Below are positions 2,164 through 38,272 of a DNA stretch of 64,000 nt, one piece after another; the first letter of the stretch is position 1; each line of letters opens with the position of its first letter. The notes beneath the pieces are model-generated. The model saw only the letters and a program-made list of their open reading frames with translations. It did not search any database and had not been told where the DNA came from. This stretch comes from Polytrichum commune. Its lineage: Eukaryota > Streptophyta > Polytrichopsida > Polytrichales > Polytrichaceae. The position numbers and the translations under genes are program-made. Where the stretch lies: the NCBI GenBank assembly GCA_950295325.1, contig OX485804.1:66998033-67062032 (forward strand). The letters run 5' to 3'.

Positions 2164-4794
2164 CCAGATATGGAAATCCTAGAGGACGTGCCTGAGGGGG
2201 AAGAGGAGATTCTTGGGGATGATGCTGAATTTGTGGGTGATGAGGATGAGATTCGGATACGGCAGAAACTTAATTCAGTGTCCACGATCACAAGCTTGCG
2301 ATTCCAACCCATCAGCTCCTCGCGTTTTAGTATTCCTTTGTGCAGAATGCTAGCAATGCCAATGGTAAGGCCAACTCTCACATCCGATCTTGCTAAGCTC
2401 GAGCAAGAGTTTGTTCACGGATACAGGGAAGGTGCTTCAGTCTTTTATGTCTCAACCACCAATGAAGACGGTAAGACACAGGAAGTGCTTGAAGCTGATA
2501 AAACTTCTTGGGGTCCTATTTGGAACTCCAAAAACGACGCCTTCAACACATTTCTCCTATCCGATCCACATTTGGCCCACTTAACAAATATGATGTTTTT
2601 TGTGTGCGACGGAAACCATAGGCGTCAAGCATGGTTAAACCACATTGACAGACTTCACCGAAATGAGGATTCCTGGCATTATTTGGTGGACTCAATTCTA
2701 CTTGAAACAAATGGGAAAACTGGACTTGTTATGCAAGTCATGCACAACATAAACAAGTAAGTCAATTCTCTTTTCAATTACAATTTTTCATATTGATTTC
2801 GGACACGTTTCAACTTATTTTCATTTCATTAATCTAATATCTTTCACTTGAATTTTGATTTCAGACACACCGAGGACTCTCACGTGAAGACCAACATTGT
2901 CCATACCCTGTTCAGGGTTCAGAAGTATGGTTTAATGTCAATTGACCAGTTCAAAGACATTTTGAGTCCGGCAGATCTCAAAAGATGCAAGAAGTCACCA
3001 AAAAAGACGTAGTATTCGTTACCATTACATGTGTTTACAAATTTCATATTTCAGGTAATATACTAGTCCTACATCCTAGTTTCTTAATCGCAAAGAGAAG
3101 AGTTTGTGAATCTCCAACCATTGGTTTCATTTTCTTCTGACCTTTTGGTTTCTGCATTCTTGTTCTCTCTTTGTGCAGCACGAACTTGGTCTCGCTGCTG
3201 ACGATGGTTTACGTCTGCTTGTGGAGCAAACGGAAGGAGAAGTCTCCCCTGCTGACAAGGTAGCTGCGATGAAAGCTGCAGTTGAAAAGAGAGCTGTGGC
3301 ACTTCGCATGAAAATGGGAAAACTGGTTGCTGTATCTAACCCTGAGCTTACCGACGGATGGCTTCACGAGGTACGTTTACGAAACCTTTGTCCATATCAA
3401 TCTTTTCAGCTTATCCTTGACAAGAGGACTTCGGAACTCACAAAGTCTCTGTCACACAGATTGAACGACATTACACCCTACACTCACTCTCACAGGAACT
3501 CAACTTGGAGAAGCTGCAGCTCATTGCAACTTCTAAGGCGTCTCCGACATTCAAAATAAAATGGCTAGAATACTTTAATTCATCTGCTTCTACTCGCGAG
3601 GCCCGCAGGCTACCTCCCAAGCCCATCAACGAAGAAAGATTGGCAAATTTCCTGGCTAAAGCAAGTTTCTGGGCAGGAGTAAGTCCACTCATTCATAATT
3701 TCATTGACGCAATCATGCATTTGATGTCCAGCTGATGCTTATTGTCTTGCTTATCAGATTTCTGAGCAGGCCTGTATTATTTTTGACGAGACCATGCGTC
3801 AAGACCGACTTCCTATCAACATGACTGTTGCCAGTGAGCCGATGTTGTTGCCAGCGTATATCAAAGATTGTCGCATGAAGTTGTGGGACCATGCTTTCAA
3901 CACCTATTTCAGAGGACCCGATTCCTTCAAAAAATGTGACGACTTTGTTGGATTCAATGGAGCTGACCTTGTTGTCCGCAGAGTACTTTATAGGTACGTC
4001 TTAATTCTTTAAGTACTCTTCATTTATATCAGTTCATATTTTGTGATTTCCTAGTTCAAAATTTCTATAATGTAATGTTAACACATATTTCTGAACACAG
4101 GTACTTTAAGTACGAGCTTATGGCCAAAGGAGCTATTTCCAAAGAAGACCTTCCTGTATTCTTGACTACATGGCTTGATAGATCGAATTCAGCCTGCATG
4201 TTCTCGGCTCTTCAACAACGCACGTGGACATCTTCTCACCTTACCGGCGGTGCCTGGTATCTGGATTGCGCTCCAAGTTTTACTCCTTCGTTTGAGACTG
4301 AGATCCGAAAGTCAAGGGAGGATGTAGGTGAGTCTGGAATTGAAATGTTGGACTTACAGGGCATTGAAGATGAGAATGAGAGGGCAAAGGCAATAAAAAG
4401 ACGCATCGAAGAGGACCGAAAGAAAGCGTTGAGGGTTAAAGAGGCTGAGGAGAGAGCAGATCAAAGAGAGCGGGAGAAGCTACAGAATTCACTGGAGAAA
4501 TCCACGAAGAAGGGCAAGAAGAAGATGGACCCCCCCCCGGAGCCAGAAGGTAAGAGTCCCGTTGCTCCAAGTCCCACATATGAATCTGGTTCTCATGCTC
4601 CAACATTTTCTAGAGGAACAAAACGCGATTCATCCTACGAGCAGTTGAGTCAAATTCCTATTTTGACATTGGGGGAGGAGCTCGAGATCCATATTGAAGA
4701 GCTCATTCTCAACTCCTCATTAGAGGACGTTCTTGGCGGTGACACTGAGGAATTCACCCCTTCCTACAACGAGTTGAAAAGATTCATGCTCAAG
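2164..4794 (+). CDS. Copy A, 5' part: ParB-like domain and linker of a ParB/methyltransferase-like fusion protein
   Basis: Exons read from GT-AG signals and the paralogue at 29.1 kb: 2164-2756, 2865-3054, 3179-3370, 3492-3678, 3758-3993, 4101-4794. The first exon opens after a CAG acceptor; an in-frame ATG at 2170 could be the start, otherwise an exon lies upstream. An acidic stretch is followed by IPLCRMLAMPMVRP and then CDGNHRRQAW, the layout of the ParB/Srx fold (a GHRR-type loop). The last exon encodes a WYLDC motif, a highly charged helix (about EDENERAKAIKRR onward) and a proline/serine-rich, probably disordered linker. An in-frame TAG at 3010-3012 in exon 2 aligns with a Trp codon of copy B, so the gene may be a pseudogene or be spliced differently. 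The next exon lies 20.7 kb downstream. Domain assignment is from motifs; nuclear DNA binding is inferred. Confidence 0.7.
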
Positions 4795-5581
4795 GTAATG
4801 GTCTAACTCACTTTTGTCATAACATGTTTGCATTGGAATTTATGCATATCAATGTGTTTCTAAACTCCTTCATTAAAAAAGGTTTCATTCCTAAACTAAA
4901 CTGAGCTGAACTAGGATGCTTCTGAGTTGGTATTAAGTGTCTGAATTTGCTTTTAAAGTATATTTACTTCAGCTCAACTTAGTTTTGTTTGGATGCTTGT
5001 GGTTGGTGATTAAGGGGAAACACTTAGAAGTATTAGGTAGATTTTGATTTGAATATGTGGCTCGGTTCTGAATTGGTATTAATGGTCTAGAATTAATGTC
5101 AAACACTACCTATCAGTAGGTAGAGTTAGTTCTGAATTAGTTTTTCGGGCCCGAAACACATATTGGGAGGGGCTAGATTTTATGCTGGATTTGATATGGT
5201 AGGATACTTCAGTTTAGTTTAGGGAGAAACATGGAGTAGTAGTAGGCAGAGTTAGTTCTGAATTAGTGTTTCGGGCCCGAAACACTTTCTCGGGGGGGGG
5301 CTGGTTTGTGATCTTTGAAGTGACAAGGTAGGGGGTTCAGATATTCAACTTTGATTGTATGTAATTGCCTCTGAGCTGATGTGGACTGAATTGCTCTTCA
5401 AGGGCTGAATGTATGTTAGTTTTGTTTAGTTTAGTTTGGTTTAGATTAGTTCGGTTAGGTAGATTGAAGTTTTGGTCAAACACTAAGTAGTCGTAGGTAG
5501 AGTTAGCACTGACTAAGTGTTTCGGGCCCGAAACACTTTCTGGGGGGGGCTGGTTTGTGAATTTGGAGGTGACAGGGTAGG
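4795..5581. repeat. Array A2, left part, in the middle intron of copy A
   Basis: After the donor at 4795 comes diverged repeat sequence, then recognisable ~250-bp units. Palindromes with core TTTCGGGCCCGAAA are at about 5143-5156, 5265-5286 and 5516-5537. The units are a relative of array A1: they keep the palindrome, the G-run and the 'gagctgatgtggactgaatt' segment, but have a different right flank (cactttctgggg). The array is cut by the retrotransposon at 5582 and resumes at 23474. Confidence 0.88.
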
Positions 5582-7394
5582 TGTGAGGCCAAACCCCCCA
5601 CCCTTAAGCGTCCGTAGTCCGAGTAGTGGGTTTGGGCTCACATTCCTCCGCGGTATTGGATTTGGACTTGGATGAGTCCATAGTGCAAGGTTCACCCTTC
5701 AAGTGGTCTTGGATTTAACTTTGGTCTTTGCTTCCTTTGTCTTGCCATCGCGAGAGTGCTCCACATTCTCCATTAAGTTGTGCACGTGGTTTATTTTTAA
5801 AGAGAGGATGCAAGTGTTAAAAAAAACACTATTCTCTATAGTCAATCTCAAATACATTTACTTGTGAAAGCCACACATAACACTAACTAGCATAATGTAA
5901 CTAACTACTTGTCTATGAGCTAATTAGGTAGGCTATCTACTAAGCTCCTTCATGAACCCATCTCTTTATTTTCTAATTACATAAACCTAGCTCCTTCATA
6001 AACCCAGCTCCTTCATAAACCCAGCTTCTTAGCTTCTAACTAAACAAACCCAGCTCCTTCATGAACCCAGCTCCTTAGCTTCTAACTAAACAAACCCAGG
6101 TCCTTCATAAACCCAGCTCTTTACTTTCTAACTAAACAAACCCAGCTCCTTCATAAACCCAGCTCCTTCATGAACCCACAACTTTGTAGTTGTAATCCCC
6201 AACTACCTCACTAATTATTCAAGCCCTTAACTAATCTTCCTACCTAATTTCCCTAATTCTACTAACAACCCCTTTCTAATCACACAATTCTTCTCTAATC
6301 CTAAAATCCTAAAATCCTAGAGAGGAGAGGGGGAGAGAGAATTTCCTAACTTCACTAAGACTAACTAATCCACACAAGTATATTTTTGCACTCATCACAA
6401 CATCAAGTGCTCAACTCTTAAACATGGAACTTGCAACCACGTGTATTCAAAACATAAACTTTAAGTACCACAAATTGGAATCATGAATTAACTTTAAAAT
6501 CCTTCACGTCAACACTAATTCTACCAAGAGGTCAAGCCCTCTTCAAGGCTAACAAGCCTTGGCTCTCAAACTAAAAACTAAGCACACACATGTGCTCCAA
6601 TATGGCTTCCCACACCCACACTTATAACTCGTGGGGTGCCTTGGAGCACAAAGGAAAGAGAGGATGAGTGAGGGAAGAATGAGGGATTATATAGTAAGCT
6701 TGAGGGGGTGAGCACCCTCAAGGCTCACGATAAGCCCTTGAGATTTCCTCCTACTTAGTAGGCGCCAATCCTATCTTCTAAGTCTTCCTCCCTCAAATGA
6801 TCAACAAGGATCCTAATTCGAACATTTAACTAGCCTTGGCTTTCTACCTACCACACTTTACCAAACTTGGGATGCTTCAACCCAAACTTAGCCTCCTTCG
6901 CTTTCCGCCGCCATAACTTTCTCCCCTTACTTTCCCAAATCGTCGCTCACCACTTAATTCAAACCACGATGCTTAACTCGTGATTTGATTGGTGCTTTGA
7001 GAATTTGCTTATCCTCCACCTTGCATTCTTCCTTGGGCCTTCCCCATTAAGTGGCCATGATGAGGTGGTCCACTTGTGCGCTCCATGTGATCCTCCATTC
7101 ATCCCAATTCGAATGCACTTGCCTCTTGAGTCACTTTGGTTGTCTCCATCCATTTGTACTAGCCTACTCACTAACTACTCAATCCAAGTTCTCCTTACCT
7201 ATCTTCATTCACTCAAATCCTTCCGAAGGTAAAAACACAATAACAACTCACATCCTAGCCTCTTACAACATGGTACTTCTAAGACTAACATTTCACTCTT
7301 TTTATATTTTTGTGAAGTAACATGCTACTTCAAAGTGCATCAACTAACGTTTCAAGGGTCTAAGACTAAATGTGGGCACCCTTTTGGGCTCACA
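5582..7394 (-). repeat. 3' LTR of the outer retrotransposon
   Basis: 1813 bp, TG...CA. It matches 21660-23473 almost base for base. It carries an internal minisatellite of CAGCTCCTTCAT(A/G)AACC modules (about 5943-6178). The open frames in this LTR have exact twins in the other LTR and show no protein features. Confidence 0.96.
5943..6178. repeat. Minisatellite inside the outer LTR
   Basis: Short tandem modules alternate between a CCAGCTCCTTCATAAACC type and a TTCTAACTAAACAAACC type. The same block is in the other LTR at about 22021-22257, so it was present in the mother element. Confidence 0.85.
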
Positions 7395-7452
7395 TAATTG
7401 GCGACCATCGGGGGATGAATCCAAACATCTCTTGCTCCAAGGGTAAGTTGCC

Positions 7453-10314
7453 TAGTCAAGCTCGGTACTCCTTACATCTACTTCCCGATGTACGGGTAGG
7501 AAAGAGCTCACCATTCAACGTTTCCAATTGAATTGAATTATTAGGAAAGACCTCATAGACAAGGTAAGGTCCTAACTATACCGCATTGAATTTCGCCGGA
7601 AATTCAAGCTTTCGTGCGTCTTGAATCATGACCATCATTCCCGGTGTTAGGGCCCTTCTCTTATGTCGTTTGTCGAAAGTAATCTTTCTCCTTCTTTGGA
7701 TTGCCTCAATATGTTGAGCCGCCATTCTCCTCCCTTCGTCAAGTGCTTCCAAATCGGTTAGTCGATTTCGTAAGGATTGACTTTCGGTAAGTCTCGTACT
7801 CACGGCCACCCTAAGTGACTCGACTTCATATTCGATTGGTAGTGTCGCTTCAAGACCATAGACTAAGGAAAATGGTGTAGCACGCGTAGTTACCTTATAG
7901 GTTGTACGGTATGCCCAAAGTGCCGCCGTTAGTTTCGTATCCCAATCCCGCTTCGAGTCTATAACCGTCTTGCGTAGTATACTCACCAAAATTCCGTTAA
8001 CCCTTTCCGTTTGTCCATTGGTTTGTGGGTGGTAGGGAGTAGTCTTCCGGTGATCAATTTTAAATTTCTCTGTCATCTCTCGAATCAAGTCATTCAAAAA
8101 GTGAGTACCCCTATCGCTTACTAGGATCTTCGGCACCCCGAACCGCGAAATTATGTTTTCGTACATAAATGTTGCCGCGTGTTCCGCCGTGTCGGTCTTC
8201 ACCGCTTTGGCTTCCGCCCACTTGGTGAGGTATTCGGTTGCCACCACAATATATTTCATTCCTTTTGAAGATTGGGGATGGACCTCACCCACATAGTCGA
8301 TGCCCCATTTTTCGAAAGGAATTAAGGGTAATGATACATGTAAAGGCATCTCCATTCTAAGGTCGTTTCGGGCATACCGTTGGCAAGCGTCGCATTTCCT
8401 TACATAGTCATGGGCGTCCTTAAATAGTGTAGGCCAAAAGTAGCCCGCTCTAAGTATTTTTTGCCCGGTGAGTTGACCCGAGAAGTGACCGCCGCAAGCG
8501 CTATCGTGGCAAGCGATTAAAATCGCTTCAACCTCCGTTTTTGACACGCATTGTCGTAAAATACCATCGGACCCCCTTCTAAACAACCTATGGCCCACTA
8601 CAACAAATTGCCTACTATTTACCCTCACCTTCCTTCTCTCTTCTTTTGTCCACTCTTTGGGCAACTTGTGGGTTGTTAGAAATTCCACTATGCCCGCATA
8701 CCACGCCGGTGTAGAAGTGACCACAAAGAGGCTATCATCTACTAACATATCATTTACCGGATTTTTTCCTATCTCCTCCGACAACCTAGACAAGTGGTCC
8801 GCTTGTAAATGCATACGACCCGGTTTATATTCCACCGTGTAGTCGAATTCTTCTAATAACAAAACCCACCTAGCTAACCTACCACTTAACTCCGCCTTGT
8901 TAATTAGATACTTGATAGCCATGTGGTCAACAAAAAATACAACCGGGTTGCACATGAGGTAATGCCTAAACTTTTTAACGGAAAACACCATGGCTAGGCA
9001 CTCCCTCTCCGTTGTAGAGTAGTTTCTTTCGGCGGGGGTCAATTGCTTACTCGCATAAGCTATAGGTTGATCCTTCTCTTTTTCTCCCGTTGCTTGACAA
9101 AGCGCACTCCCTATTGCCACATTACTAGCATCACAATAGACGTGAAAAGGTTTACCCCAATTGGGTGGTATCAACACCGGATAGGTGCTCAACCTATCCC
9201 GCAATTCCTCAAAGGCTTTTTGACAAGCATCCGTCCACTCGAATTTGACATCCTTTTTGAGCAAATGGGTAATGGGCACCGCTATCTTTGAAAAATTAGG
9301 AATAAGTTCCCGGTACCATCCCACATGTCCTAACAACTTAGAGATCCCCTTGGAATTGGTTGGAGTTGCCAAGTCGCTTATGGCCGCAATCTTATCCGGA
9401 TCGGGTTCTCTACCTTTCTCACTAACAACATAACCCAACAACACTCCCTTATTCACTCCCAAAAATGTCTTATCCGGGTTCAATGCTAACCTCATCTTCC
9501 TACACCTAACCAATGCCTCCCTAACACAATGTAGGTGATCATCCACATTACTTTGTGTGCTAAAATCGTCCACAAAGACGGTCATGGATTTGAACAACAA
9601 GTCGGTGAAGATATACATTACTAATCGTTGGAAAGTAGCCGGGGCATTACATAACCCAAATGGCATCACTACCCACACAAAAGTACCCCAAGGTGTAGTA
9701 AAAGCCGTTTTATGGATATCTTGGAGGGCTATGGAAATTTGATTATAACCCGCATACCCATCCATAAAGGTATATCGCGAATGACCTCCAACCTCCTCAA
9801 GCAACAAGGTAATAAAAGGTAAGGGGAAGTGATCCTTTTGTGTGCACGAATTCGATTTCCTATAGTCGACACAAACCCTTAATTTCCCATTTTTTTTCTT
9901 TACTAAGACCATAGGAGAAACCCAATCCGTGATTTCCACCGGCTTGATAAACCCGGCCTTCAATAACCTTTCCAATTCCGCTTTCACCAACAATTGCAAT
10001 TGAGGATTCATCCTCCTCTCCTTTTGTCTAATTGGCCTCGCCCCCGGAATTAAAGGAATCCGGTGCTCTACCATTTCCCTAGGAATTCCCTTAAGCTCAT
10101 CGTAGGACCATGCAAAAGTATCACTAAACTCATCCACCAAATTGCTATACTCCCTAACCTCTTTCTCCCCCAATTTGGAGCCCATCTTCATTTGTCGGGT
10201 TTTTCCATTCTTTAATTTCACATCCACGTACCGCCAATCCGCTTCCGACACATGTGCTTGTTCCTCTTTGTTCCGATACCAATCGGAAGGCACATTGGGG
10301 TAATCTTTCACATC
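7453..10314 (-). pseudogene. Outer element pol: RT, RNase H, integrase
   Basis: A 911-codon open stretch (7576-10311) carries, in order: an RT with VCVDYRKSN, MPFGLCNAPATF and catalytic FVDDF; RNase H with FHVYCDAS; the integrase zinc finger (HDSACGGHFS ... CDACQ); and an integrase core with YHPQTNGQTERVNG. It is in the same frame as gag, separated only by a TAA at 10315-10317. A TAG at 7576-7578 cuts the integrase C-terminus; the frame continues to about 7453. Both stops are single codons in an otherwise intact frame. The TAA could be a readthrough stop or a lesion; the TAG looks like a lesion. Confidence 0.92.
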
Positions 10315-12592
10315 TTAACCTACAACTATCCCCGTAGACGTGGTCTTGAAATGTAAAGGCTCCTCCAATTTCGATGACTCAATAATCACATCCTCCTCTT
10401 GAGTCCCATCTACATGAATTAAACTAACCTCACCCTCTTCCACGTCATCTACCCAAGGTGTTAACCCACCGCTAACCCACTCTTCCTCGGTGAGCGCCTC
10501 ACATGGCTCCAACAATGAGCCCTCTCCTAAACTAACACTAGGAAATTCACTCCCTAAGCCTACTTGGTGAAATGTAACCATTACATCAACCTCGGACTCG
10601 GGGTACTCCCTTAGCCATTGGGCATAATCCCCATTATCCCCATAATTGTAAAAATTAGGACCTAGACTTCCCGAGCCCGAATCTATAACAACCCTTTGAC
10701 CTTCGGGATGGACGACTCCCACCAATGCCTTGCCAATCTCATTCTCGTTTAAGTCATCAATTTCCTTCTCCAATGGCAAATACATCTCCTTCTTCATCCA
10801 TCCTTCTAATGAACCAATGGACACTATGACCCTATTACCCTCCGGACCATAAGTGATGGATGGTTTAGGTCCACCCCAATTGACCATAGCATTCGCCATC
10901 CGCAACCAAGGCCTACCTAGCAAAATGGGGAAGGTGTCCTTGTTGGAGTGCATTTTAATGACATGGAAGGTGACCAAGTACTCCTCACCTCCCGTAGTCA
11001 TTCTACAATCCTTGATCATCCCCAAAGGCGTAGTCGAACTTTGATTTGCCATATTTATGACCAAAGGTGAAGGCCCCGTGAGTCCAAGTCCCAATTTTTT
11101 CATAGTATCCTCCGGTAGTATATTTAGACTACTCCCTCCGTCGACTAGCACATTAGGAACCACCTTATCTACTATAACAACTTCTATTTCTATAGCTTTC
11201 ACGTCTCTTCCACCTTGTGATTGGATCCTAGCGGCTATTTTAGCTTTCACCTTCCTCATCCTCTTGTGTACCGGCATTCCCTCCTTTAATGTTTTCCTTG
11301 CCGTGGGTGAAATTTCCAATAGTTGGCCGAAAGTAATATCCGCCTTGAGTGTACTAAGGTCCGCCCACAAGTCGTACCCGGTAGATCTTTCCACCTTAGA
11401 ATTACCCACTACGTCGAATTCGTCTACGGGAACCCCCGGTCCTTCCCATTCACCCACATCGCTATTATCCAAGTCATGTACCGCATTAGTCCTCTCCCTA
11501 TCTTGTAAAATTATATTTTCCCTCTCCACATCCTTAGTAGCTCTTCTAGCTACCCTATCCAACTCGGAGAGATTAATCTCTTCATCCGAAGAGTAATTTC
11601 CTTGCTCTCCCATTCCTACCTCCAACGGGGCATCCCCTCTCCTAGCCCTAGTAGTTACCGCTAGTGCAGGTGCTTCTTCAACCACACCCTTACCCTTCAC
11701 TAACTCATATGTAATAGCATTGGTGTGAGGAGGCCATTGACTTTGCTCCTCTCCAATTCTCGTTGGGAGAGGAAGCATGTCATCACATGTGGCCTCCAAC
11801 ACTCCATCCATGAACCTAACATCTTGGGAGTTAGATGGTCCCGGATCCGTTGGAGGCGCTTGTCTCCCGTTACTACCATTAGGTGGAACTCCTTGTCTAT
11901 TTTGTATTGGAATGTAACCGGTTGTAGTTTGCAAGCCCGCCGGTGGATGAAAAGTTTGCCTAGCATTACTATGGTCATAGTATAAGTTAGGTGGCCTAAG
12001 TTCATTGGCCGGTACTCCTTGTGGCCTAGCACCTCGCATATTATCCCTTGCTTGTTGTTGTGGATTAGCCACCGGGTAAGGGACATTAATTATTTTGTCC
12101 GGTTGTCGACACGTATCCGAGGGATGACTTCCTCCACAATTGCTACAATTAAACTCTTGACCTTCGGACCAACATTGTCCTTGAGCGTGCCACCTTCCAC
12201 AAAAGGGATGAAATTCCTTCTTCTCTAAATTTTGGCCACCTTGCCCTCTAGGTTGTGGTCCTCTATTGCTTCCATTTCCATAGTGAGGTGGCGCTTGACC
12301 TCGTTGATTTTGTTGAGGTGGGTTACCGTTTCCTCTTTGGTCACGGTTTTGTCCACTTCTACAAAATTGACGCGTGTGGCCCGGTTGGCCACATTGGACA
12401 CACCATAATCCGGAAGAATGCCTACCCGACTCAACCGGGGGTGGAGGCCCCGGTTGTTGACTCCGGATCATTAATGACATTTGATCCGTGAGGCTTTGCA
12501 TTTGTTTTATCATAGCCTCTTGGAATCCTAGTTGGCTAGCACCTAGTCTTCTCTCAACCTCTTCCAAGTGTGGATCCGTTCTAGGGGCCGGT
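10315..12592 (-). pseudogene. Outer element gag C-terminal half and protease
   Basis: The frame contains a CCHC zinc knuckle (C-VQ-C-GQPG-H-TRQF-C), typical of nucleocapsid, and then an aspartic protease active site, LVDGGSSLNIL. The glycine/glutamine/proline-rich stretch around the knuckle is usual for gag. The upstream part of the same frame is displaced to 19643-20750 by the nested element. Removing that element plus one target duplication keeps the frame, which proves the insertion split one ORF. Confidence 0.92.
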
Positions 12593-13567
12593 TGTCGCAA
12601 CCCTTGCTAGCCCCCCATTGACCATCTTGCCCATTTTCAATTCTAGCAAAGGTTACGAGTGGCTAACCCTTCGCATACCGCCATGCTAATGGTTAGCTCC
12701 TCTAATCCCGGACCAATAGTTCATAGGAGGGAACCAACCCTCCTACTTTGCTTTCGGGACTCACCCCTTAATCGGTAACCCATTTCCCCAATGTGGACTT
12801 CCATCCATGGAAGTCCAATCCTATGTTGATCATCGCGTTGCCGGAGCAACACTACAACAACCCGAAGCATACTAGGCAACTATGGCCTCACATTAGGCCA
12901 AAGCCCATGGAGGCCTTGCCGTTCGGCCTCGGGTGGGTGAGGCCACACCACCTCACCCATATAAGCCTCTAGGACTTCACGCGGGGCCCCTACCCCACCG
13001 TCAACCAACCTCTTGTCTCTCTACCAAGAGTTGGGGCCAAGTGGACATTTTCCTTTAGCTGCTGGGCCTAGAACCCCCTAGCAGCTTCAGACCATCATAA
13101 CTTCCTTGTATGATGTCTGATCATAACAACCAACCACTCCATCTTCATCTACGCTTCACGTAGATGCCGATGGACTCCTCACTTGCCCCATTCGGGCAAG
13201 TATTGAGGAAGTTATGCCTGTTTGAACCTTGGCAGTCCCGGGAATCACTCCCAGGCACTGCTGTACCAGGGCGCTGTCCCGGGACAGCGCCCCACTCAAA
13301 TGGCCATAACTCCTAGCTCACACCTCCGATTGAGGTGTTCTTGAGCTTCCTAGAATCACCACGCCATGAGCTACGCATAGCTCATGGCCTTACCCTTGTG
13401 CCTCCTAGTCTTCGTGGGTGGGAGGCGTTCCCAACGCCCGGGGCCCTCACCCACACTAGGATCACTTGGGCCCTCTCACCAACGGCGCCACAAGTCCCGG
13501 GTGTCACTCCGGGGTCCCCCTTGTGCCCATGGTGTTTCGGGCACTCCTCATGGAGAGGTGCGCGACA
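12593..13567 (-). repeat. 3' LTR of the nested element
   Basis: 975 bp, TG...CA with perfect 6-bp terminal inverted repeats TGTCGC/GCGACA. By eye it differs from 18668-19642 only near 12714 (T versus C at about 18789). Confidence 0.95.
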
Positions 13568-13579
13568 CTCACCCCCACC
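13568..13579 (-). other. Polypurine tract of the nested element
   Basis: On the minus strand this reads GGTGGGGGTGAG, directly upstream of the 3' LTR, the expected place for the plus-strand primer. Confidence 0.65.
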
Positions 13580-14579
13580 AAACGGAGTCGATGCCCTCAT
13601 CGACTATACTCGTAGTCGGCACACCAATTCTCAAGTTGCCATCCTCTATGGTGCGGCATTGTGTTTACCTTAGGGCGCGACCCCCACAATGCATCTTCAA
13701 ATTTGGCATAGTCCCAAAGGTGTCGTTCCTAGGTGGTCCGTTAGCGACCTTGGATCTCTCATCCAAGGACCTAACCTATACTAGACCCACCTACTTTGGG
13801 ACTCACTTGGGTTGCCCCTCCTTTGGGGCCTCCCCCGTTAGGCTCCACTAGCCTAACGTGACACATCTAGGCGAGACCTCAACGCTTCCACTAAGTTGTC
13901 TCGGTTGCAACTCCGAGATGGCTTTCCATTGTTAAGCCACGCCTCGATCGCACGGGGGTGATGCCAAGTCCCGCCCGACTCGGTTCCCACTTTGCTCTTT
14001 CGAGACATGGGTTCATGACTCCCATGCGCCAACTTTCGTTCGCTCGCGGGTAGCACTTTTATGAGCACGCGCCATCACCTTGTCCCCGCCCGGACAAGCC
14101 CACAACTAAGAAGTTTCTTGGTTTTATCCAAGGCCCCTCCAAGCCATGGCCCCCAATTACTCGGCTTACCCAACTTAGTTTGGCATATCTATTCCCCCTC
14201 TTCCATTAACCAAGTACAAGTACAAGACTAGGACCTCATCTCATACTTTTCTCTTTGCACCACTAAAGTTTGGACTTTATTCCCTCAAGCCAAAGAACAA
14301 GTTAATGTTGTGGAGCAATTAGCCTCGAAGCTAAGTGTGCTACTAGCGTCTCTCCCCCACTAAAGGAGATTGATGTCCTCATCAATGCCTACGCTTCTTT
14401 TTATTGGAATGTCTAGCCTTAATTTCTTCAAAGTGCTTTACCAATTCCTTGGCGTTCATCATGTCTCTTGCCGCTACCAAACGGCTTCTTTCTCATGGTA
14501 TCCTCACCATTTCACCAAGTACTCCTTTGTTCATTTTTTTTCTTTTTCACTTGGGCTTCCTACACTTGAGGATGCCCTC

Positions 14580-15566: not shown

Positions 15567-15579
15567 TTGGCACTTTGAT

Positions 15580-17002: not shown

Positions 17003-17159
17003 CTTCCTTTGTCACCACATACCTGAAGAACTCAATCTCTCGTTGAGCAAAGTTATTTTTCACCTCTTGGCGGTAATTTTTTTGGGCAACACATTGGTGA
17101 ATACATCCTTGTATCTCACCAACATCCCACCAATGTGGTTTGGAGGAGGCCCATCTTTC

Positions 17160-17549: not shown

Positions 17550-17679
17550 GCCCCAACTCCCTTGTGAGTTTTGGGCTCAAGAAGGAGTAATAGCCTCTTT
17601 GTCAACACATGAGACATTTCTCCCATTCATTTGAGCCTCAAGGTACAAAATACTTGGCCTCGGCTTAAGGCTACTAGCC

Positions 17680-18664: not shown

Positions 18665-18667
18665 ACG

Positions 18668-21655: not shown

Positions 21656-21659
21656 ATTA

Positions 21660-26986: not shown

Positions 26987-27207
26987 TATCTTCATGTGAA
27001 TGTATGTGTACTATCTAATATACCGTTTTTTCTTCCGTTGGTTTTTCAGTTTGTGCACTCATCCGCATGGAATTCATTGTATGTGTGTTACTTTCGGAGT
27101 TTATGGGATTGCATATATGAAATTGCATATTTAAGTTCACTTTTGACTTTGTATTTTCTGATATTGTTTAAAATATTTTCGAACACCACTTTGTTACTTG
27201 TTAATGT

Positions 27208-27507
27208 TTGAGTTTACGATTAATTCGATTGTTCATCACTGAATTCCATAATCGGCCAATTAGTTCATATCCTTCTCTTTTAAATTTAAGGGTTTCCAGG
27301 GATGAGGTTGAGGTTGATGACGTGGAGGAGGAAGACATTGATGATGTTGTCAGTGTGGAGGAAGCCTTGGGGGTAGAGGAAGGCATACAGGTTGAGAACC
27401 TGGCAGGCGTAATTACTATCCTTGGTGATAGTGATGCAGATGAAGAAGGCAATCTTGATGATAATGGTTCTGGCTTCTATTATCGTTTTCATACACTTTT
27501 TCAATGA
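27208..27507 (+). CDS. Possible acidic ORF or extra 3' exon downstream of copy A
   Basis: An ORF with a very acidic core (RDEVEVDDVEEEDIDDV, then GDSDADEEGNLDD) begins about 220 bp after the copy A stop. It could be an alternative last exon, a broken piece of a third paralogue (the copy A N-terminus is also acidic), or chance. A low-confidence acceptor lies near 27290. No domain is recognised. Confidence 0.3.
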   Translation: MSLRLIRLFITEFHNRPISSYPSLLNLRVSRDEVEVDDVEEEDIDDVVSVEEALGVEEGIQVENLAGVITILGDSDADEEGNLDDNGSGFYYRFHTLFQ

Positions 27508-28289: not shown

Positions 28290-28995
28290 TTCTCAAGTCT
28301 GAATTCGGGAGTGTAATACAGATTATAAGTTTGAGTATGCTAGTTCATAGGCTGCTCTCGGAAGGTGCGGGCACCCGCACCCCCCCTGGGCCAATATTTC
28401 AATTTGTTTTCTAAGGTCAGAAAGACATTATGCAGTCTGAATTCGGGAGTGTATTACAGAATGTAAGTCTGAGTATGCTGGTTCATAGGCTGCTCTCGGA
28501 GGGTGCCGGCACCCGCACCTCCCCTGGGCCAATATTTCAATTTTTTTTCTAAGGTCAGAAAGACATTATGCAGTCTGAATTCGGGAGTGTATTACAGAAT
28601 GTAAGTCTGAGTATGCTAGTTCATAGGCTGCTCTCAGAGGGTGCGGGCACCGGCACCCCCCCTGGCCAAGGTTTTTGATTTTCTTCTGAGTTCAAAGTTA
28701 GAGTAGTTTCTCGTTTTTGTATTGAGGGTCACAGTCTGTTAGTCTGAATTAGAGCATGTATGACAGATTCTGAGTTTGACTTAATTGCTTCATTGTTTGA
28801 GTCTGCTGGTTCATAGGGTCACAGTCTGAAATGGGGAGTGTTAAAAACAATGTCTGAGTTTGATATTGGTACATTCTAGGTTGCTCCAATAGGGTGCGGG
28901 TGCCGGCACCCCTCTGGGCCAATATTTTAAATATTTTTCAGAGTTCAGAATGACATTATCCAGTCTGAATTCGGGAGTGTGTTACAGATTATGAT
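28290..28995. repeat. Array B1, ~137-bp units upstream of copy B exon 1
   Basis: Units start with gtctgaattcgggagtg at about 28298, 28435 and 28573, with diverged ones to 28990. Each unit has a GC-rich hairpin such as GGGTGCCGGCACCC. The array ends about 100 bp before the acceptor of the first recognisable exon, the same relation as array A1 to copy A. The unit is different in sequence from the copy A arrays. Confidence 0.88.
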
Positions 28996-29095: not shown

Positions 29096-31336
29096 TCCGT
29101 CTAACAGATGAAGAGTTGAAGCTCAAGCTTCACGACCTTGCTATTAAGGAGAGTGTTCCAACCGCGTCTCGTCTTGAGAAGCTCAAATGGCAACCAAAGC
29201 ACAAGGGTCGTCTTTTCATTCCCCTTTGCCGCATGTTGCCTCTTCCTATTGTGAGACCATTCATGAGGAACGACGTATCCCAGCTCGCAACTCATTTTAT
29301 GAGCAATGGCTACATGGAGGGGAATGGTTTCTTTTATATGGCACTTGAGGACAACCATGGCCACAGCAATGATGTGACGCCGAGTGTGTTGGCGAAGTGG
29401 TCAACTGAGTGGAAGGAGGTCAATGAAGAATTCGAGAAGAAGCTTCTTGCAGATGATGACTTGAAGATTTTTTCTAATAAGATGTTCATGGTTTGGGATG
29501 GGAACCATCGGCTGCAGGCATGGATGCCAATCATTGAGCAGTTTCATTCTCATGATATCAATTGGCATTTCTGTGTTGAAGGTGTAATCCTTGACCCAAG
29601 GGGAGACGTACCATCAGTGATAGCTGCTTTGCACGAAGTGAATTGGTAAGCTTCTCAACGATGTCATGTTTCATTGAATTTTTTTAGCACCTTTCTGATA
29701 TTCATTATGGATTTGCAGGAAGAATAAAAAATCTCACGTGACCACGAACCTTGTGCACAAGTTATTTCGCATCTAGAATATTGCCCCAGAGCCATTGTCT
29801 TACTTTCAAGGTTTGGTGTCCCCAACTGTTTTGGAGGCTTCAAGGAAGAAGCAGGCTGGAAAAAATCGCACATGGTTCACCCTTACCATTGAAGGTCTCA
29901 ACACTGTCCTTTATCAGGTAATAGCAACCTCTAATGTTCTCGTCTGATTTCATTTTTGATTAAGGTATTCATGTAACTGATTGAATTATTTGTTGGAATT
30001 ATAGCAAGAGATTGCAGAAGCTGCACATGCTGCTGAGGACAAATACAAGATGAAGAACCCAGATTCTAGCAATTGGACGGATCGTAATGTAGAGGAATGG
30101 GTTAAGAAGGCTGTGAAGAAGGTCGAGGATAAGCTTGTCGGTGAGCTTAGGAAGCATTTGCCTGTTGCGGATCCTAGGCTAACTCCGGGTTTTCTCGAGG
30201 AAACAAAGGCTCACTATGAGAAGTTCGATGAACCTGAGATGCTTCAGGAGAAGCTGTATATGCTAGCCACTTCCGTGATGCCTCCTAGGATGATGGTTAA
30301 GTGGCTTCAGAGGTGGAACTCTTCTGCATCGATTCGTGATGCGCATCGCTTTCCCAAGGCTGGCTTCGGCGACTCCAAGTTTCCGGAATGGCTTAATCGG
30401 GCAACATGGTGGGCTCAGATAGCAGTGGAGGCTGACGAGCTCTTCACTGCTATTCTCACAGATTTAGGGGAAACTATTGATTACAATCAAGATGGCCAAG
30501 ATCCGATCTTGACAATCTTTGATTATGTGGAGGCCATGAGGTGTCAGCTCTGGGAGGTTGTTTTTTTCATTGAGTTGGGTGGAGATAATGGCGCTCATAA
30601 GAACAACCCCCCCGAAAAGCAACCTTCTTTCATTCAAGTTGTCCGCAGGGTTCTTTACAGGTACTTTCGGTATATTCTCCTGCCCAGGAAGGCCATCTCA
30701 AAGGTCCCACCTTTTTTTCCTAACTACCTCGATATTGAAAGCCCAGATTCCATGTTCACTCCTGCAATCATAAAAACATGGGATCCGATTCACTTTCAAC
30801 AGTGCGGGTGGTATTTGGACTGCCCGTTCAAGAAACCTCCTGCCTTTGACATTGCACTCAGGGATTCTATTCAACCTATCCTACCTTCTTCTGCAACCTC
30901 AATTCCACCCTCACAGTCTCCCACACCCCCCAAGGGTGGATCCTCAAGAAGCAAGACCGCAACAACAGAGATTAGGCCTCGGGGATCAAAGCGGAAGGCT
31001 GCTGATTTGGTTGAGGATCCAATGGACGAGGATCCAATTCGTGCAACAGGTACTGATATCGGTGATCCCCCTCTTGAACAGCATGACCCAATCAGCTCCC
31101 ATCCTCCCCGGGCAGCTCATCCAAAGCGTATTCACCTCAGTGCCCCAGGTCTAGCCAAGCCCATCAGTTTTGTGCCTCCTGCGGTGAAGGCAATGTCGTC
31201 ATCACAGGCATGCACCTCGTCCGCTTCTCCTCGGGTTCTGATATTGAATGATTCATTCCACAAAAGGCTGGAATATAAATCAAAGCACAACAAATTCCCT
31301 TCCACTTACGATGACATGGTTGTTTTTCTGAGTGAG
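29096..31336 (+). CDS. Copy B, 5' part: ParB-like domain and linker
   Basis: Exons 29096-29645, 29719-29917 and 30005-31336. Exon 1 encodes the ParB/Srx-like stretch IPLCRMLPLPIVRP ... VWDGNHRLQAW, aligned residue by residue with copy A over most of the exon. A TAG at 29774-29776 interrupts exon 2 where copy A has a Gln codon (CAG), one C-to-T change away. The long third exon corresponds to four exons of copy A, so three introns are absent here. It holds the WYLDC motif, a proline/serine linker and a basic, NLS-like RGSKRKAADL. No start codon is visible after the acceptor at 29095, so a 5' exon is missing from my model. Pseudogene status is likely but not proven. Confidence 0.68.
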
Positions 31337-33401
31337 GTAAGTATCCAACTTATTTTCCCTTTCGAAATTCATTCTATAATGTTAATTTTTAGGCTTCATA
31401 AGGCTGGTAACTTATTAGGATTTTATTTCGGGTTTCAGGTTCATTTACTAACAGTCTCAATTGGGCTAGTTATGGCAAATTTTTTGTTTGAGTATGCTGG
31501 TTCTTAAGGTTGCTCCCAAAGATAGCCGGCAGAGAGTGCCAATGTTCTTATATTTATTTACAGTGCAAGGTCTCATTTAAGCACTTAGATTCTAAGTTTG
31601 ATTCTGCTTGTTAATATGCTGCTCCTACAGGGTCTCTGTAGCGGCACCCCTACTGGACCAATGTTTTTATTTTTATTGTGATTTCAGGGTCTCTACTTCC
31701 AGTCTGAATTCGGGAGGGTTTCACAGATGGTTGTTTGTTCATATGCTGCTCCTATTGTCAATGTTTTTGGTTTAATTTTGGGTTCAGGGTCTCAATCTTG
31801 CTGTCTGAATTCGGGAGGGTTTTCCAAATGTTTGTTTGAGTCAGCTGGTTCATTGTTTGAGTCTTCTAGTTCATTGTTAGAGTCTCCTCCTAGAGGGTGC
31901 CGGCAGCTGCACAATTCTGGGCGCAATATTTCTGTCTGAATTCGGGAGGTTATTCAAGGTTTTATTTTGAGTTCATGATCTCAATGTTTATGAAATCAGT
32001 AGGGTATTCCAGAATTTTGTTTGAGTATGCTGGCTCATATACTGCGTCCAGAGGGTGCCTGCACATGCACCCTCTTTGGGCGAAAGTTTTTATTTTTTCT
32101 TAGAGACGAGTGTGGCATTCTTAAAGTCTGAATTCGGGAGTGTATTCCAAAATTATAGTTTGAGTGTGCTGGCTCATGTGCTCCTCCCAGAGGGTGCCGG
32201 CAGCGGCACCCCCTGTGGGCCAAATTTTTTCATTTGAATTCATGGGCGCAATCTTTCTGTCTGAATTCGGGAGGTTATTCAAGGTTCTATTTTGAGTTCA
32301 TGATCTCAATTTCTCTGAAATCGGTAGGGTATTCCAGAATTTTGTTTGAGTATGCTGCGTCGTTTGCTGCGTACGGAGGGTGCCGGCAGCGGCACCCTCT
32401 TTCGGCCAAAGTTTTTATTTTTTCTCAGAGGTGAGTGTGGCATTCTTAAAGTCTGAAATCGGGAGTGTATTTCAAAATTATAGATTGAGAATGCTGGCTC
32501 ATATACTGCGTCCAGAGGATGTCTGCACATGCACCCTCTTTGGGCGAAAGTTTTTATTTTTTCTCAGAGACGCGTGTGGCATTCTTAAAGTCTGAATTTG
32601 GGAGTGTATTTCAAAATTATAGTTTGAGTATGCTGGCTCATGTGCTCCTCCCAGAGGGTGCCGGCAGCGGCACCCCCTGTGGGCCAAATTTTTTCATTTG
32701 AATTCATGGGCGCAATCTTTCTGTCTGAATTCGGGAGGTTATTCAAGGTTCTATTTTGAGTTCATGATCTCAATTTCTCTGAAATTGGTAGGGTATTCCA
32801 GAATTTTGTTTGAGTATGCTGCGTCGTTTGCTGCATACGGAGGGTGCCGGCAGCGGCACCCTCTTTCGGCCACAGTTTTTATTTTTTCTCAGAGGTGAGT
32901 GTGGCATTCTTCTAGTCTCAATGCGGGAGTGTATTCCAGATTATAGTTTGAGTATGTTGGCTCTTGTGCTCTTCCCAGAGATGCCGGCAGCGGCACCCTC
33001 TTTGGGCGAAAGTTTTTACTTTTTCTCAGAGACGCGTGTGGCATTCTTAAAGTCTGAATTCGGGAGTGTATTCCAAAATTATAGTTTGAGTATGCTGGCT
33101 CATGTGCTCCTCCCAGAGGGTGCCGGCAGCGGCACCCCCTTTGGGCCAATTTTTTTCATTTGAATTCATGGGCGCAATCTTTCTGTCTGAATTCGGGAGG
33201 TTATTCAAGGTTCTATTTTGAGTTCATGATCTCAATTTCTCTGAAATCGGTAGGGTATTCCAGAATTTTGTTTGAGTATGCTGCATCGTTTGCTGCGTAC
33301 GGAGGGTGCCGGCAGCGGCACCCTCTTTCGGCCAAAGTTTTTATTTTTTCTCAGAGGTGAGTGTGGCATTCTTAAAGTCTCAATGCGGGAGTTTATTCCA
33401 T
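31337..33401. repeat. Array B2, higher-order tandem repeat in the middle intron of copy B
   Basis: Sub-units of about 100-150 bp contain 'ctgaattcgggag', 'gtttgagtatgctggctcat' and a hairpin GGGTGCCGGCAGCGGCACCC. They are organised into a ~464-bp higher-order unit (equivalent points at 32234, 32698, 33160). Perfect hairpins are at 32192-32211, 32378-32397, 32656-32675, 32842-32861, 33118-33137 and 33304-33323. The look-alike open frames on both strands come from the repetition. The repeat is interrupted by an insertion at 33402 and resumes at 36242. Confidence 0.9.
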
Positions 33402-36241
33402 TGTGAACCCTTTGAGTGGTCCACCACTCTGCGGGATCACTTTTAGTTAGAATGTTAGCATTAAAAGTTAGAATTGATAGGGAATTTAGGAAAAATTAGT
33501 TCATTTAGCATTTAGCCTAGAAGAAGGAAGGTCAAAATGAAACTAAGTAGTGCTAGAAGATAGCAAAGTAGAAAAAATGTGCTAGCTAGTAAAAACAACT
33601 AGCTAAGCAAATATTAGTAGATGCTAGTTATTAAGCAAATGTTAGTAGATGCTAGCTAAGCAAGTGTTAGTTTATTAGTTAGTGTGAGGCACACAAGACT
33701 ATTGGAGGTGTTTTACGTAAGAAGATAAAATCGGCGTGAAGAATTTTGAAGACAAAAAAGAAAGAGAGCAAGGGGGATACTTGCCCACTTGCCCCCTTGC
33801 CAACTCGATGGCGGAAAAATTAGAAAGATTTCTAAAGGTTTTTTATCGGAGCCACCTCGGCGAGAGGGTGGCAACCTCAACCGGGAAAACCCCCGAGCCA
33901 AAATTTCGGGAAAGGGTTTGAAAAATGGATCCGGTGGAGGAGGGGTCCAACCCTTATGTGAGAGGGTTTAAAAACCCCTCCTTCCACCTTGTAGCTCTCT
34001 CTCTTTCTCTAGTTTTTGGGCGAAGCCCTGCTTCAATGTAGTTAGGAAAAAATCCTTTAGCATGTATTCTCAATGGTCTAAAAGAAAGGCTTGAGAACCT
34101 CCTCTACTCTCTCTCTCCTAGTTAGGTTGTGTGTTTATTAACACACCAACAAAATTATTCCTTCTTTTGTAGAGGTAGGTTGGATGGTAGAGTTTTGAGT
34201 AGAGGCATTATAGACCTCATCTGCCAATGCCCTGAAGGCTTAGTTCAAAAGCTAGAACAAGATACTTATCATTTTTCTCTTAGAGAGATTTCATATAGCT
34301 ATCCATAGCCGTTTCCCATTTGTGATTTGGTTGAGATGACAATTAGTTATGGATTTTCAAAGATGGAGTAGAAAAACTGGGTGGTCTTGTGGGTAGCGGC
34401 TGCTGGATCAGACCTGCGAGCCCAATAGGAATTTTAATTCCAAGAAATTATATTTTTCCCAAGTAGAACTTTTGTGTAGCTTTCCAAAATGGCTTAGAAC
34501 ATTTGATTTGAGCATGATTTGAATTAGATATGAATTGTGCAAGATGGGACACATAGTTTGAGAACTTTTGGTTGACTGCTGCATTACAGAGGACCTGCTG
34601 GGTTCACTTCGGCTTACCTTTCTAATCACATATTTTTATCAAATACATCTTTTTAATATCTCTCCAGGGTCATATAGAACGTTTGATTTGACTAAGATTT
34701 GAATTAGATATGAATGGTTGAAGGCGAGATACATAGTTTAAGCCTTCTTGATTGACTGCTGTGTTACAAGGAGTCCGCTGAATTTCTATTAGCTTAACCT
34801 GCTGATGTCATAATTTTTTCTAGTTAGAGCTTGTTCATAGCTTTCCAATGGTATAAGGAAAGCCTAGATCCAAGTAGTAAGGAATGTGCTATGAATTTTT
34901 GAAGTTAGAAGGTAGATAGGTGGGTTGGAAGGGTCGGTTGAATCGACCTCACACTTCCAACCCTCATAACTTTTGCATTTCTTATCCGATTAGAGTGATT
35001 TTTAGATCATTGGAAAGATAATTTGGTGCACTAAGTATAAAAATTATGCTTAGGATTAAATTACAGGGCAGAATAACACTTTATATTTTGATTGTTAACT
35101 AAGGTACGCTTACTACCAAACTAGTTACAAAGAAGGAGGCAAGGTCGACGCTCGGAAAGTGGAGCAAGGAAGGAGGTAGCGGCTCGGCCTACATCAAGCC
35201 CAAATCAACCGAGGAAAATTGAGGTAAATTAACTAACCTTAAGCCTTCCATTTAGGATTGGAGGGAGCACGGCTAAGGTACGCATCTCTAAACCCACTCA
35301 CCTATCTCGTAAGGTCAAGTGGCTTGACCACTTGACCGCCAAGGGAGTACCCAATTCCATTGTTTTCGGGGCCCTTGGTATGTTTTGTGGTAGTAGCTTC
35401 ATTTATTAGCAAGTTTCGTGTGTGGTAAGTCGGATTAATCACCGATACGACCACTCTGAATGTTGTTGGTGGAAAGGTGGGGTTAATGACCCGCGAATCC
35501 ACTATTATGTTGTTGGCCCCATAGATTGGGAGTAATGGCCCCAATTTATGAAGATTGCGCAACAGGTTGAACCTACAGGTCGCCCGTCACCCTGGTCCCA
35601 TTGAGTTGCATTTCGTGGTCTATCCAGTGTAAACACATTTAACAATCAAAACATACAAAATAAATCGTAAACCCTTGTTGGCAAGAGACCCGAGGTAAGG
35701 GGTGATGCCTAATATGTTAATGTAGTAAGTTAGGACGTGCAAACAAAAGTAAGTAATTAAGAAGGAATTTGTGTGAAGGGTGGGACTTAGGCCAAGTTCC
35801 CCCGCTTAGAAAACTAAATAGAACTAAATAAAGAAATAGGAAGAATTGAATGGTCCATCAAATTGTCGTTATTCCGTTCGTTGAGTTAGGGTGGTATGAG
35901 TCACACCCGGTTGGGTGTATCAGAACCATCCCAATTCACAAATTAGGATTGCCTTGGTTTCAAGGCTGGTGCGTCTGCGCGTAGAATAGGTTGTAGGTTA
36001 AGGTTAGAACTAGATATGAAATTGGTTAGTGGAGTTTAAAGCCACACTGGTAAAAAACTAAGGCCTAACCTCCGGAGGTACTACGACGCATATTTAATCT
36101 CCCTTAAAAATCTAACTACTCACGTTATACACCTATCATCCGGGTTCGGCTTGGGCGCCTGCAAATGCAGGCCACCTTCACCGAAGGGCTTGTGTGATAC
36201 TTTTAGGCTCCCTCGAAAGGGGGTGGCCCAAAAGTACCACA
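33402..36241. mobile_element. Solo-LTR-like insertion, 2.84 kb
   Basis: It starts TGTGAACCC and ends ACCACA (TG...CA), flanked by the 5-bp duplication TCCAT (33397-33401 and 36242-36246), inside array B2. No second LTR and no gag or pol motif is seen, so it is best read as a solo LTR left by recombination, or a large non-autonomous element. It has a diverged internal duplication of ~185-bp period (about 34490-34580 and 34675-34765) and a TTTAAAAACC box near 33968. The ORFs in it show no domain. Orientation is unknown. Confidence 0.75.
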
Positions 36242-36930
36242 TCCATATTATAGTTTGAGTATGCAGGCTAATGTGCTCCTCTCAGAGGTACCCCCCCTGG
36301 ACCAATGTTTTTGTTTTTATTTTGATTTCAGGGTCTCTACTTCCAGTCTGAATTCGGGAGGGTTTGACAGATGACAAGTTTGAGTTTGCAGGTTTATATG
36401 TTGCTCCTCTTGGTAATGTTTTTGTTTTAATTTGGGTTCAGGGTCTCAATCTTGCTGTCTGAATTCGAGAGGGATTTCCAGATGAGGGTATTCAAGATTC
36501 TATTTGAGTTCAGAGTCTCATTTTTCCAGTCTGTATTCGGGAGTGTAATACAGATTGTAAGATTGGATCAGGGAGGAATGTCAAATTCTATGATTGAGTT
36601 TGCTGGTTCTATGGCTGCTACTAGAGGGAGACTAAACCCAGCCAATGTTTTCTTTTTATTTTGAGTACAGGGTCTATTTCTTCCAGTCTGAATACGGGAC
36701 AGTATTCAAGTTTTGAGTTTGATTTTGCGAATTCATAGCCTGCCTTTCTGGGGCAACGTTATTATTTATATTTTGAAATTCGGGTCCCATTCTTCCAGTC
36801 TGACTTCGGGAGGGTATTCCAGGTATTAGTTTGAGTATGCTAGCTCATTTGCTGCTCCTCTGGACCAATGGTTTTATTTTTATTTTAAGTTCCAGGTCTC
36901 ATTCTTGCAGTCCATATTTAACGGCTTGGT
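36242..36930. repeat. Array B2, right part
   Basis: It resumes with 'attatagtttgagtatgcagg', continuing the unit cut at 33401. Further 'cagtctgaattcgggag' copies follow, more diverged toward the acceptor near 36976. Confidence 0.8.
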
Positions 36931-36981
36931 TTTCTTGAATCAAAGGTTGGAGCTTCCAGGGAATTCTTTTTTTCAGGAAAG

Positions 36982-38272
36982 GTGTTGCACAAGCCTGCAG
37001 TGGACCTCATTATTGCAGAGTATCCCGATGGTTTGCATGTCCCAGGAGTCTCCGAATTTCCATGCCAAGTACCAAATTGGAATAAGCAGGTTCAGAACTT
37101 TGTCAAGTTGACCATTGGCTTCTGTCAAGGCTATCTTCACGACGACGGGGCACTCCTCCTTTTTTATCCTGATAGCGTGCAAATCAAGAAGGATGTTTTG
37201 AGCTTTCTCTACAACAACAATTTGGAGGTCAAGGAGGAATGGACCATCGTGAATTCTCTCCACCTCACTCATCCTGTGCATACCTCCAAGCGGGTCAGTA
37301 ATTTTAGACTATTTTCCTCTCTTCAAGCACTCCCTCCTTCATGACTTGAATCACATTCCTAACAATTTGGGGCCTATTTTTGATATGCAGACTCTGAAAT
37401 TCAAAGCGATAGTGCTCGTGCGATCTTTCTCCTCCCCTTTGGTTAGGCAACCGATTGAGCTTGTAATTTCTTCAAGTGATGAATTTGAGGATGTTGACCT
37501 TGCATGTGATGACGTGCTTTTCAACATTGTTACTGCTGATACTGCACTGAAGCGCAAGGACGGTGACACATTCTGGAGGGGCCCAAAGGAGAAGGCAGTG
37601 TCCCTGCTCCAGCTTCTTATCAGTGGCCTTAGCCCTCCAGGGGGTATTATATGTGATCTCACTGCAGGAATTGGTATGAGCAATTTGTTCAAAGCCAACA
37701 TTTGTTTTGCTTAGCTAAGTCTATCAACTACGACTAATTCATTTCTTTCGTTCTTCGTAGGTGCTTCGGTTCTTGCCGCGCAATCAACCAATAGGGCAAT
37801 AGTGGCACTTGAGGGTGACAAGGAATATTAATTGTACGAAGAAATTCTACAGCCACTTCAGGTTGCAGCTTCGGAGTTTCAGGGGATCGATCCAACCCAC
37901 TTTGTGGACCTTGACGACGACGAAGATACTCCTCTTCAACAGGGTGCAGTAAATTTATGTGAGTAAGTCTTTTGTCATCTTGAACTTATTTTCCGAATAT
38001 GTTGCATTTAATTTTCATGGGTCTAACAATCGTAAATTTTCTTTTCTTGCCGCAGTCTGATGGTTGCAGGCGGACGCTCCGTACACTACGGCTCGCCTCC
38101 TACATCTAACATGCGACTTCCCTGTTATGCAGAGGATATGGCAGTAGCTTATGCCAAAGACTCCTCCCATAGTTCTAGTGCCTCTTCTAGTCCACGTGTG
38201 AGATACGATCCTAGAGTACTGAGATTCATAGATCAAAGTGCTTCGGAGAGTGAGGATGAGTTTATTCCTTGA
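36982..38272 (+). CDS. Copy B, 3' part: degenerate beta-class methyltransferase domain
   Basis: Exons 36982-37293, 37391-37673, 37761-37972 and 38056-38272 (stop TGA). Motif IV position reads VDLIIAEYPDG (EYPD where DPPY is usual). Then come YLHDDGALLLFYP, FWRGPKEKAVSLLQLLI and motif I ICDLTAGIGAS, followed by VALEGDKEY. A TAA at 37829-37831 stops the frame right after this; the frame then continues LYEEILQPL, aligned with copy A, so the stop is a lesion. At the first exon, the canonical CAG acceptor (36974-36976) gives the wrong phase; only the AAG five bases later keeps the frame. The last exon is Ser-rich and acidic (ESEDEFIP). Changed catalytic residues make activity unlikely. Confidence 0.7.

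Follow-up and report, generated by a model that had tools for sequence, protein, structure and literature searches.

A tandem gene pair of the moss Polytrichum commune combining a ParB-like motif with a degenerate beta-class DNA methyltransferase domain

A 64,000-nucleotide stretch of the moss Polytrichum commune (assembly GCA_950295325.1, contig OX485804.1, positions 66,998,033 to 67,062,032 of the forward strand; hereafter the window) contains two neighboring genes, A and B, for which an initial annotation had proposed a fusion of a ParB-like region with a degenerate beta-class DNA methyltransferase. Our comparisons indicate that A and B are an anciently duplicated tandem pair and members of a real, old, conserved and large moss family, and that the C-terminal part of their proteins descends from the beta-class N6/N4 DNA methyltransferases. 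The catalytic motif IV of these enzymes is lost in the copies seen. The N-terminal region, of ~150 residues, is probably a divergent ParB/Srx-type nucleotide-binding domain, a reading to which we give somewhat more than even weight. Both copies in the window have probably been disabled recently and would be pseudogenes of a living family.

Gene structure and moss relatives

A motif search found DGNHRRQAW in gene A and DGNHRLQAW in gene B, both on the plus strand (Table 1). From the reading frame, GT-AG borders and phase we built models of 10 exons for gene A (2164-26986) and 7 exons for gene B (29098-38272). The splice borders of both genes are GT-AG and their phases are consistent, which supports the proposed structure of spliced plant (here moss) genes. 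The choice of some borders, that of the beginning of B exon 4 in particular, was guided by the paralogue; this start was set at 36946 because the frame and length found in A are thereby preserved, and it is supported by a relative, P0037, whose sequence continues out of the central exon into this methyltransferase exon. The 5′ ends are provisional: gene A may begin at ATG 2170, and an acceptor-like AG precedes both first exons. Between the two genes lies an acidic open frame (27205-27507), which may serve B as a first exon or A as an alternative last one.

Protein A can be aligned with protein B over almost its entire length (blastp E 1.7e-136, 427 bits, 29% identity), with 30.8% identity across 1011 aligned codons. 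Over these codons the identity at positions 1, 2 and 3 is 0.46, 0.57 and 0.31, respectively, and at the 138 fourfold sites common to A and B the third-base identity is 0.30, so the synonymous divergence of the pair is saturated. The codon patterns point to long purifying selection on both genes. Each of the six B introns is matched by an A intron of the same phase, five of them at the identical aligned residue and the last one two residues away. The reading of A and B as an old tandem pair is supported. Gene A has three extra introns within the stretch equivalent to B exon 3. We aligned 22 exon-3 relatives, and in 18 of them the similarity sets in right at the position of A intron 4 or a few residues from it, so the difference probably reflects intron loss in B.

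Neither A nor B has an open reading frame through all of its exons in this assembly. One internal in-frame stop (TAG) is found among the 1080 codons of A and two (TAG and TAA) among the 1042 codons of B, which contradicts the statement of the initial annotation, where the stops had been overlooked, that both copies encode a protein. We considered a changed genetic code as an explanation of these stops and rejected it, because TAA, TAG and TGA each terminate one of three long kinase frames in the window, so that the code looks standard.

Searches with single exons uncovered a large family that had likewise been overlooked. B exon 3 retrieved 81 clusters among 3197 candidates at E <= 1 (the weakest at E 1.1e-38), and exon 1 retrieved 101 clusters, defined at 90% identity, among 151 candidates at E <= 0.01 (the weakest at E 1.2e-17); these counts pool several sources and do not give copies per genome. 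When A was searched at whole length, none of the 7993 scored candidates reached E <= 0.001, likely because the relatives are stored as single-exon open reading frames and are hidden by the length filter. The nuclear localization signal (NLS)-like motif mentioned in the initial annotation is present as GSKRKA in B exon 3, and KRKA recurs in 64 of the 81 exon-3 relatives. DGNHR is exact in 77 of the 101 exon-1 clusters; among the other 24 some end earlier and several are mutated or look frame-shifted, which suggests that the family includes many decaying copies. Altered motifs or frame-shifted or cut-looking ends are seen in P0114, P0127, P0155 and P0177. A tree built from 46 rows of exon 1, rooted at its midpoint and including some very long rows, joins A to P0176 (100/99) on long branches and places B beside P0082, P0083 and others, so the split between A and B looks old. 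A hypothetical protein of Ceratodon purpureus, M758_UG129100 (P0129), belongs to the same family: its identity with exon 1 of B is 61%, with 93% of the exon covered, and its 191-aa record is limited to the exon-1 region and carries KGNHRLQAW. This gene is located on a 112-Mb contig; we take the UG of its name to stand for the U sex chromosome, and this member apparently lies on that chromosome. Among the matches listed from the open-access literature, no title or abstract opening was about this family.

Two alternatives bear on the history of these copies. The in-frame stops would not be disabling if they came from an assembly error, recoding or unseen splice forms, and their low number in such long coding regions as well as the GT-AG borders are in line with this; on the other hand, the ends of the kinase frames indicate the standard code and, by eye, any donor close upstream of the stop in A would either miss the phase of exon 3 or cost much of exon 2, so we regard this explanation as unlikely. 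It also seems improbable that the family belongs, or once belonged, to a mobile or viral-type element, its many and often decayed copies having spread by amplification. While the number of clusters obtained for a single exon and the four altered or cut-looking sequences named above would agree with such an origin, the conserved intron positions and the strong codon-position constraint argue against it, none of the 25 inverted-repeat pairs listed, of 26 in all, bounds gene B, and pattern-based scans of viral contigs yielded no confirmed relative.

The methyltransferase-like and ParB-like regions

The methyltransferase descent of the C-terminal domain is supported because Pfam, PHROG, PDB-profile and profile-profile results concur. 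The beta-class N6/N4 family PF01555 matched A at E 1.8e-5 (25.2 bits) and B at E 7.2e-5 (23.3 bits), both slightly under the curated cutoff of 26.7 bits, and PHROG 3008 matched them at E 8.9e-7 and 2.7e-8, respectively. In the PDB, a two-row profile of A and B matched the beta-class enzymes DpnA (5HFJ/5HEK; E 7.6e-6) and CcrM (6PBD; E 0.0014) over the motif X/I region. The comparison of A+B with phage methylases by hhalign was also positive: six ParB-fused methylases aligned over 186 columns (Probab 91) with a score of 50.5, whereas 60 column shuffles did not exceed 20.0, and five other phage methylases over 62 columns (Probab 97, without shuffle control). In the alignment with the six, ADIPEG of A and AEYPDG of B fall near the DPPY motif, and DCTAATG of A and DLTAGIG of B on motif I. 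Both copies thus have the motif IV position before motif I, which confirms the beta-class order, and the catalytic DPP[YFW] is absent at motif IV from A, B and P0037 (also AEYPDG), the sole copies seen that cover the site. GxG of motif I is kept in B and not in A, and an acidic residue after strand 2 is present in both copies (ALEGD, ALEAD). The reading as a degenerate beta-class methyltransferase domain is supported; unlike the known enzymes of this class, the domain has lost motif IV and is embedded in a long spliced protein.

The N-terminal region is characterized by a near-invariant WDGNHRLQAW that follows a hydrophobic stretch. Among 48 aligned exon-1 rows, D is conserved in 45, G in 47, N in 46, H in 45, R in 46 and A in 46. 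The sequence fits the P motif GxxRxxA of ParB (GNHRRQA in A, GNHRLQA in B), although this motif alone would be weak evidence for ParB.

Related signatures are found in proteins of the ParB/Srx fold. Sulfiredoxin (Srx) is a small redox enzyme. The GCHR-type motif of this eukaryotic ParB-fold enzyme (PMC4619093, excerpt) resembles the moss GNHR, which differs from it by having no cysteine. DGQHR and DGQQR are signatures of the ParB/Srx-fold domains of DndB and GmrS (PMC4619093, excerpt), the former being a ParB-superfamily protein (PMC10853773, excerpt), and DGQHR/DndB and GmrS (DUF262) have the signature DG[QN][HQ]R in common with the moss motif. Double-domain GmrSD proteins often connect their ParB/Srx domain to a second domain through 200-400 residues of helical linker (PMC4619093, excerpt), but this partner in GmrSD belongs to the HNH nucleases and neither DndB (weak, 4 of 48 rows) nor GmrS gave a significant profile match with the moss region. 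According to a 2025 survey of the ParB-CTPase fold, methylase fusions occur in phages; the survey names Srx as a eukaryotic example, and the words plant, moss and algae are absent from its main text (PMC12704722).

Several results weigh against a ParB domain. Pfam scans of A and B and of the 48 exon-1 rows gave no ParB family match, and the exon-1 profile found no ParB/Srx chain in the PDB. When compared by hhalign with nine phage ParB-type regions, A+B scored 14.2 (60 shuffles reach 19.5) and a set of 46 rows 13.7 (60 shuffles reach 21.2), and with the insert cut out the score was 12.95, with 28 of 100 shuffles at or above it; in contrast to the methylase comparison, that with ParB thus stayed within the shuffle range. 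Scans of NCBIfam, PADLOC and PHROGs for ParB gave no credible match either. A low-threshold hhalign path did run through the elements in ParB order, though not above chance. Because hhalign detects the methyltransferase and not ParB, the ParB assignment continues to be drawn from the motif: of the ParB/Srx-like loop that had been proposed, the DGNHR motifs and their fit to GxxRxxA hold, and the domain itself is unproven. Matches to DndB (PF14072, 4 of 48 rows, best E 0.0059), to the unrelated DUF5531 (11 of 48 rows), to ryanodine receptor (E 0.008) and to eL24 (E 0.1-0.2) were judged to be noise. DndB was not found in a rescan of 19 members and a consensus (20 sequences), the four matching rows not having been identified.

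Seven phage proteins combine a ParB-type region with an N6/N4 methylase, among them those of Streptococcus phage Javan117, Ruminococcus phage NatCom_38182 and Lachnospiraceae phage IMGVR 15430980; their putative ParB part was recognized by tblastn with a ParB stretch (E 1e-6 to 0.2). They resemble the moss genes in placing the ParB-type region before a beta-class methyltransferase, and the methylase halves of six are those aligned with A+B above. Unlike the moss proteins, all seven are only 359-496 aa long, six have DPPY, the moss central region of several hundred residues is missing, and their N-terminal halves align with those of the moss no better than shuffles. The N-terminal part of B had no tblastn match in phages up to E 10. 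The methylase part of B matched 324 phage records by tblastn, and no ParB domain was found in the five of them checked in Pfam. Pattern scans of viral contigs (queries A3, A2 and A4) and of prokaryotic genome contigs (query A4) confirmed no relative, each scan being based on two or three short peptide patterns, and descent from phage or bacterial ParB-methylase fusions remains conjectural.

Repeat arrays and other elements of the window

Both genes are accompanied by minisatellites with palindromic cores (Table 1). Those of A and B differ, yet they occupy the same two relative positions, one upstream of the gene and one in the homologous intron. At A, the 18-bp palindrome TGTTTCGGGCCCGAAACA is present in 17 copies within two mismatches, 16 of them exact, and in none of 100 shuffles; it is the most conserved 18-bp window of the repeat unit (rank 1 of 300) and extends to 30 bp in five of the seven copies upstream of the gene. 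At B, GGGTGC..GCACCC cores gave 14 pattern hits at 12 places, with 0.1 expected. The arms TGTTTC..GAAACA presumably equal those of bacterial parS. In bacteria parS is read by a helix-turn-helix domain, and no family of this type was found in the A and B proteins. Since each gene has its own palindromic minisatellite, a nuclear ParB-type switch with a dead methylase could recognize the arrays and load at its own locus as ParB does at parS, an analogy that we consider highly improbable. Minisatellite palindromes can persist via replication or gene conversion, and we therefore report the arrays as an observation and not as a mechanism.

The outer long terminal repeats (LTRs) of the retrotransposon in gene A intron 6 measure 1814 bp and are 99.89% identical; the nested LTR retrotransposons are young. 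Their minus-strand gag-pol-like frames are interrupted by TAA at 10317 and 20033, and both inner LTR copies contain a 24-bp perfect palindrome. Downstream of the gene pair, positions 43843-44802 form a 960-bp imperfect inverted repeat of itself, foldback-like and 77% identical to its own reverse complement. In a long single frame (48239-50728), two protein kinase stretches accompany one that resembles MLKL_N (PF22215, E 2.9e-4, below cutoff), and further long kinase frames lie at 41855-43582 and 45278-46588. At 55150-56364 an in-frame TAG separates a PIF1-like helicase piece from a further open frame behind it, perhaps a Helitron remnant. Scanning the window for tRNA genes and Rfam families gave no match.

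Table 1. Coordinates of the gene pair, repeat arrays and retrotransposon, numbered from the first nucleotide of the window
Feature	Position	Strand	Remarks
Tandem array upstream of gene A	1-1726	+	~257-bp units, palindrome TGTTTCGGGCCCGAAACA, 7 copies
Gene A exon 1	2164-2756	+	acidic N-terminus, ParB-like region, DGNHRRQAW (motif at 2608)
Gene A exon 2	2865-3054	+	in-frame TAG 3010-3012
Gene A exons 3-6	3179-3370, 3460-3678, 3758-3993, 4101-4794	+	conserved central region, charged linker; homologous to B exon 3
Repeat copies in gene A intron 6, left of retrotransposon	5141-5535		3 further copies of TGTTTCGGGCCCGAAACA
LTR retrotransposon in gene A intron 6	5582-23473	-	Ty3-like pol domain order, flanking 5-bp repeat GTAGG
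Second LTR pair, nested inside retrotransposon	12593-13568, 18668-19643		99.9% identical
Tandem array in gene A intron 6	23474-25349	+	~249-bp units, palindrome TGTTTCGGGCCCGAAACA, 7 copies
Gene A exons 7-9	25504-25851, 26010-26283, 26393-26600	+	beta-class methyltransferase-like domain (ADIPEG at motif IV position, DCTAATG at motif I)
Gene A exon 10	26698-26986	+	C-terminal tail, stop TAA
Repeat units upstream of gene B	28296-28911	+	~138-bp units, GGGTGC..GCACCC-type inverted-repeat core
Gene B exon 1	29098-29645	+	ParB-like region, DGNHRLQAW (motif at 29497)
Gene B exon 2	29719-29917	+	in-frame TAG 29774-29776
Gene B exon 3	30005-31336	+	conserved central region, NLS-like GSKRKA, linker
Related repeats in gene B intron 3 (homologous to A intron 6)	31895-33400	+	periods 137-139 and 464 bp, same core type
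Gene B exons 4-6	36946-37293, 37391-37673, 37761-37962	+	methyltransferase-like domain (AEYPDG, DLTAGIG); in-frame TAA 37829-37831
Gene B exon 7	38056-38272	+	C-terminal tail, stop TGA

Possible role of the family protein

Our best explanation of the whole, held tentatively and a little short of an even call, is that the family protein could be a nuclear, DNA-associated pseudo-methyltransferase with a ParB/Srx-type N-terminus. The region with WDGNHRLQAW would act as a nucleotide-dependent switch, the conserved central region would contribute the NLS-like motif, and the dead methyltransferase fold would serve as a DNA- or SAM (S-adenosylmethionine)-binding module. Our comparisons show the gene structure, the methyltransferase descent, the loss of motif IV in the copies seen and the conservation within a family, whereas we infer the ParB fold, the nuclear location, the contact with DNA and the switch role. 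Besides the negative ParB comparisons, this explanation has to contend with the fact that motif IV was seen only in A, B and the partial P0037, so that its family-wide loss is thinly sampled, and that motif I of A is also damaged.

The N-terminal domain might instead be another fold with a GxxRxxA-like motif, that is, a moss domain joined to a pseudo-methyltransferase. Given that every sequence and profile test for ParB was negative, this is quite conceivable, if less than likely, as the near-invariant motif after its hydrophobic stretch resembles the DGQHR, DGQQR and GCHR signatures and the low-threshold alignment path keeps the ParB element order, albeit not above chance. That the family acts as an amino-methyltransferase on DNA or RNA, its motif IV being unusual, would be compatible with the GxG retained in B and the acidic residue after strand 2 in both copies, but the loss of DPP[YFW] from all three copies covering the site and the degraded motif I of A make such an activity decidedly doubtful.

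As for the ParB/Srx-type pseudo-methyltransferase that we favor, if its fold is confirmed, this conserved, many-membered moss family, one of whose members apparently lies on a sex chromosome, would represent a new type of DNA-associated protein in plants.

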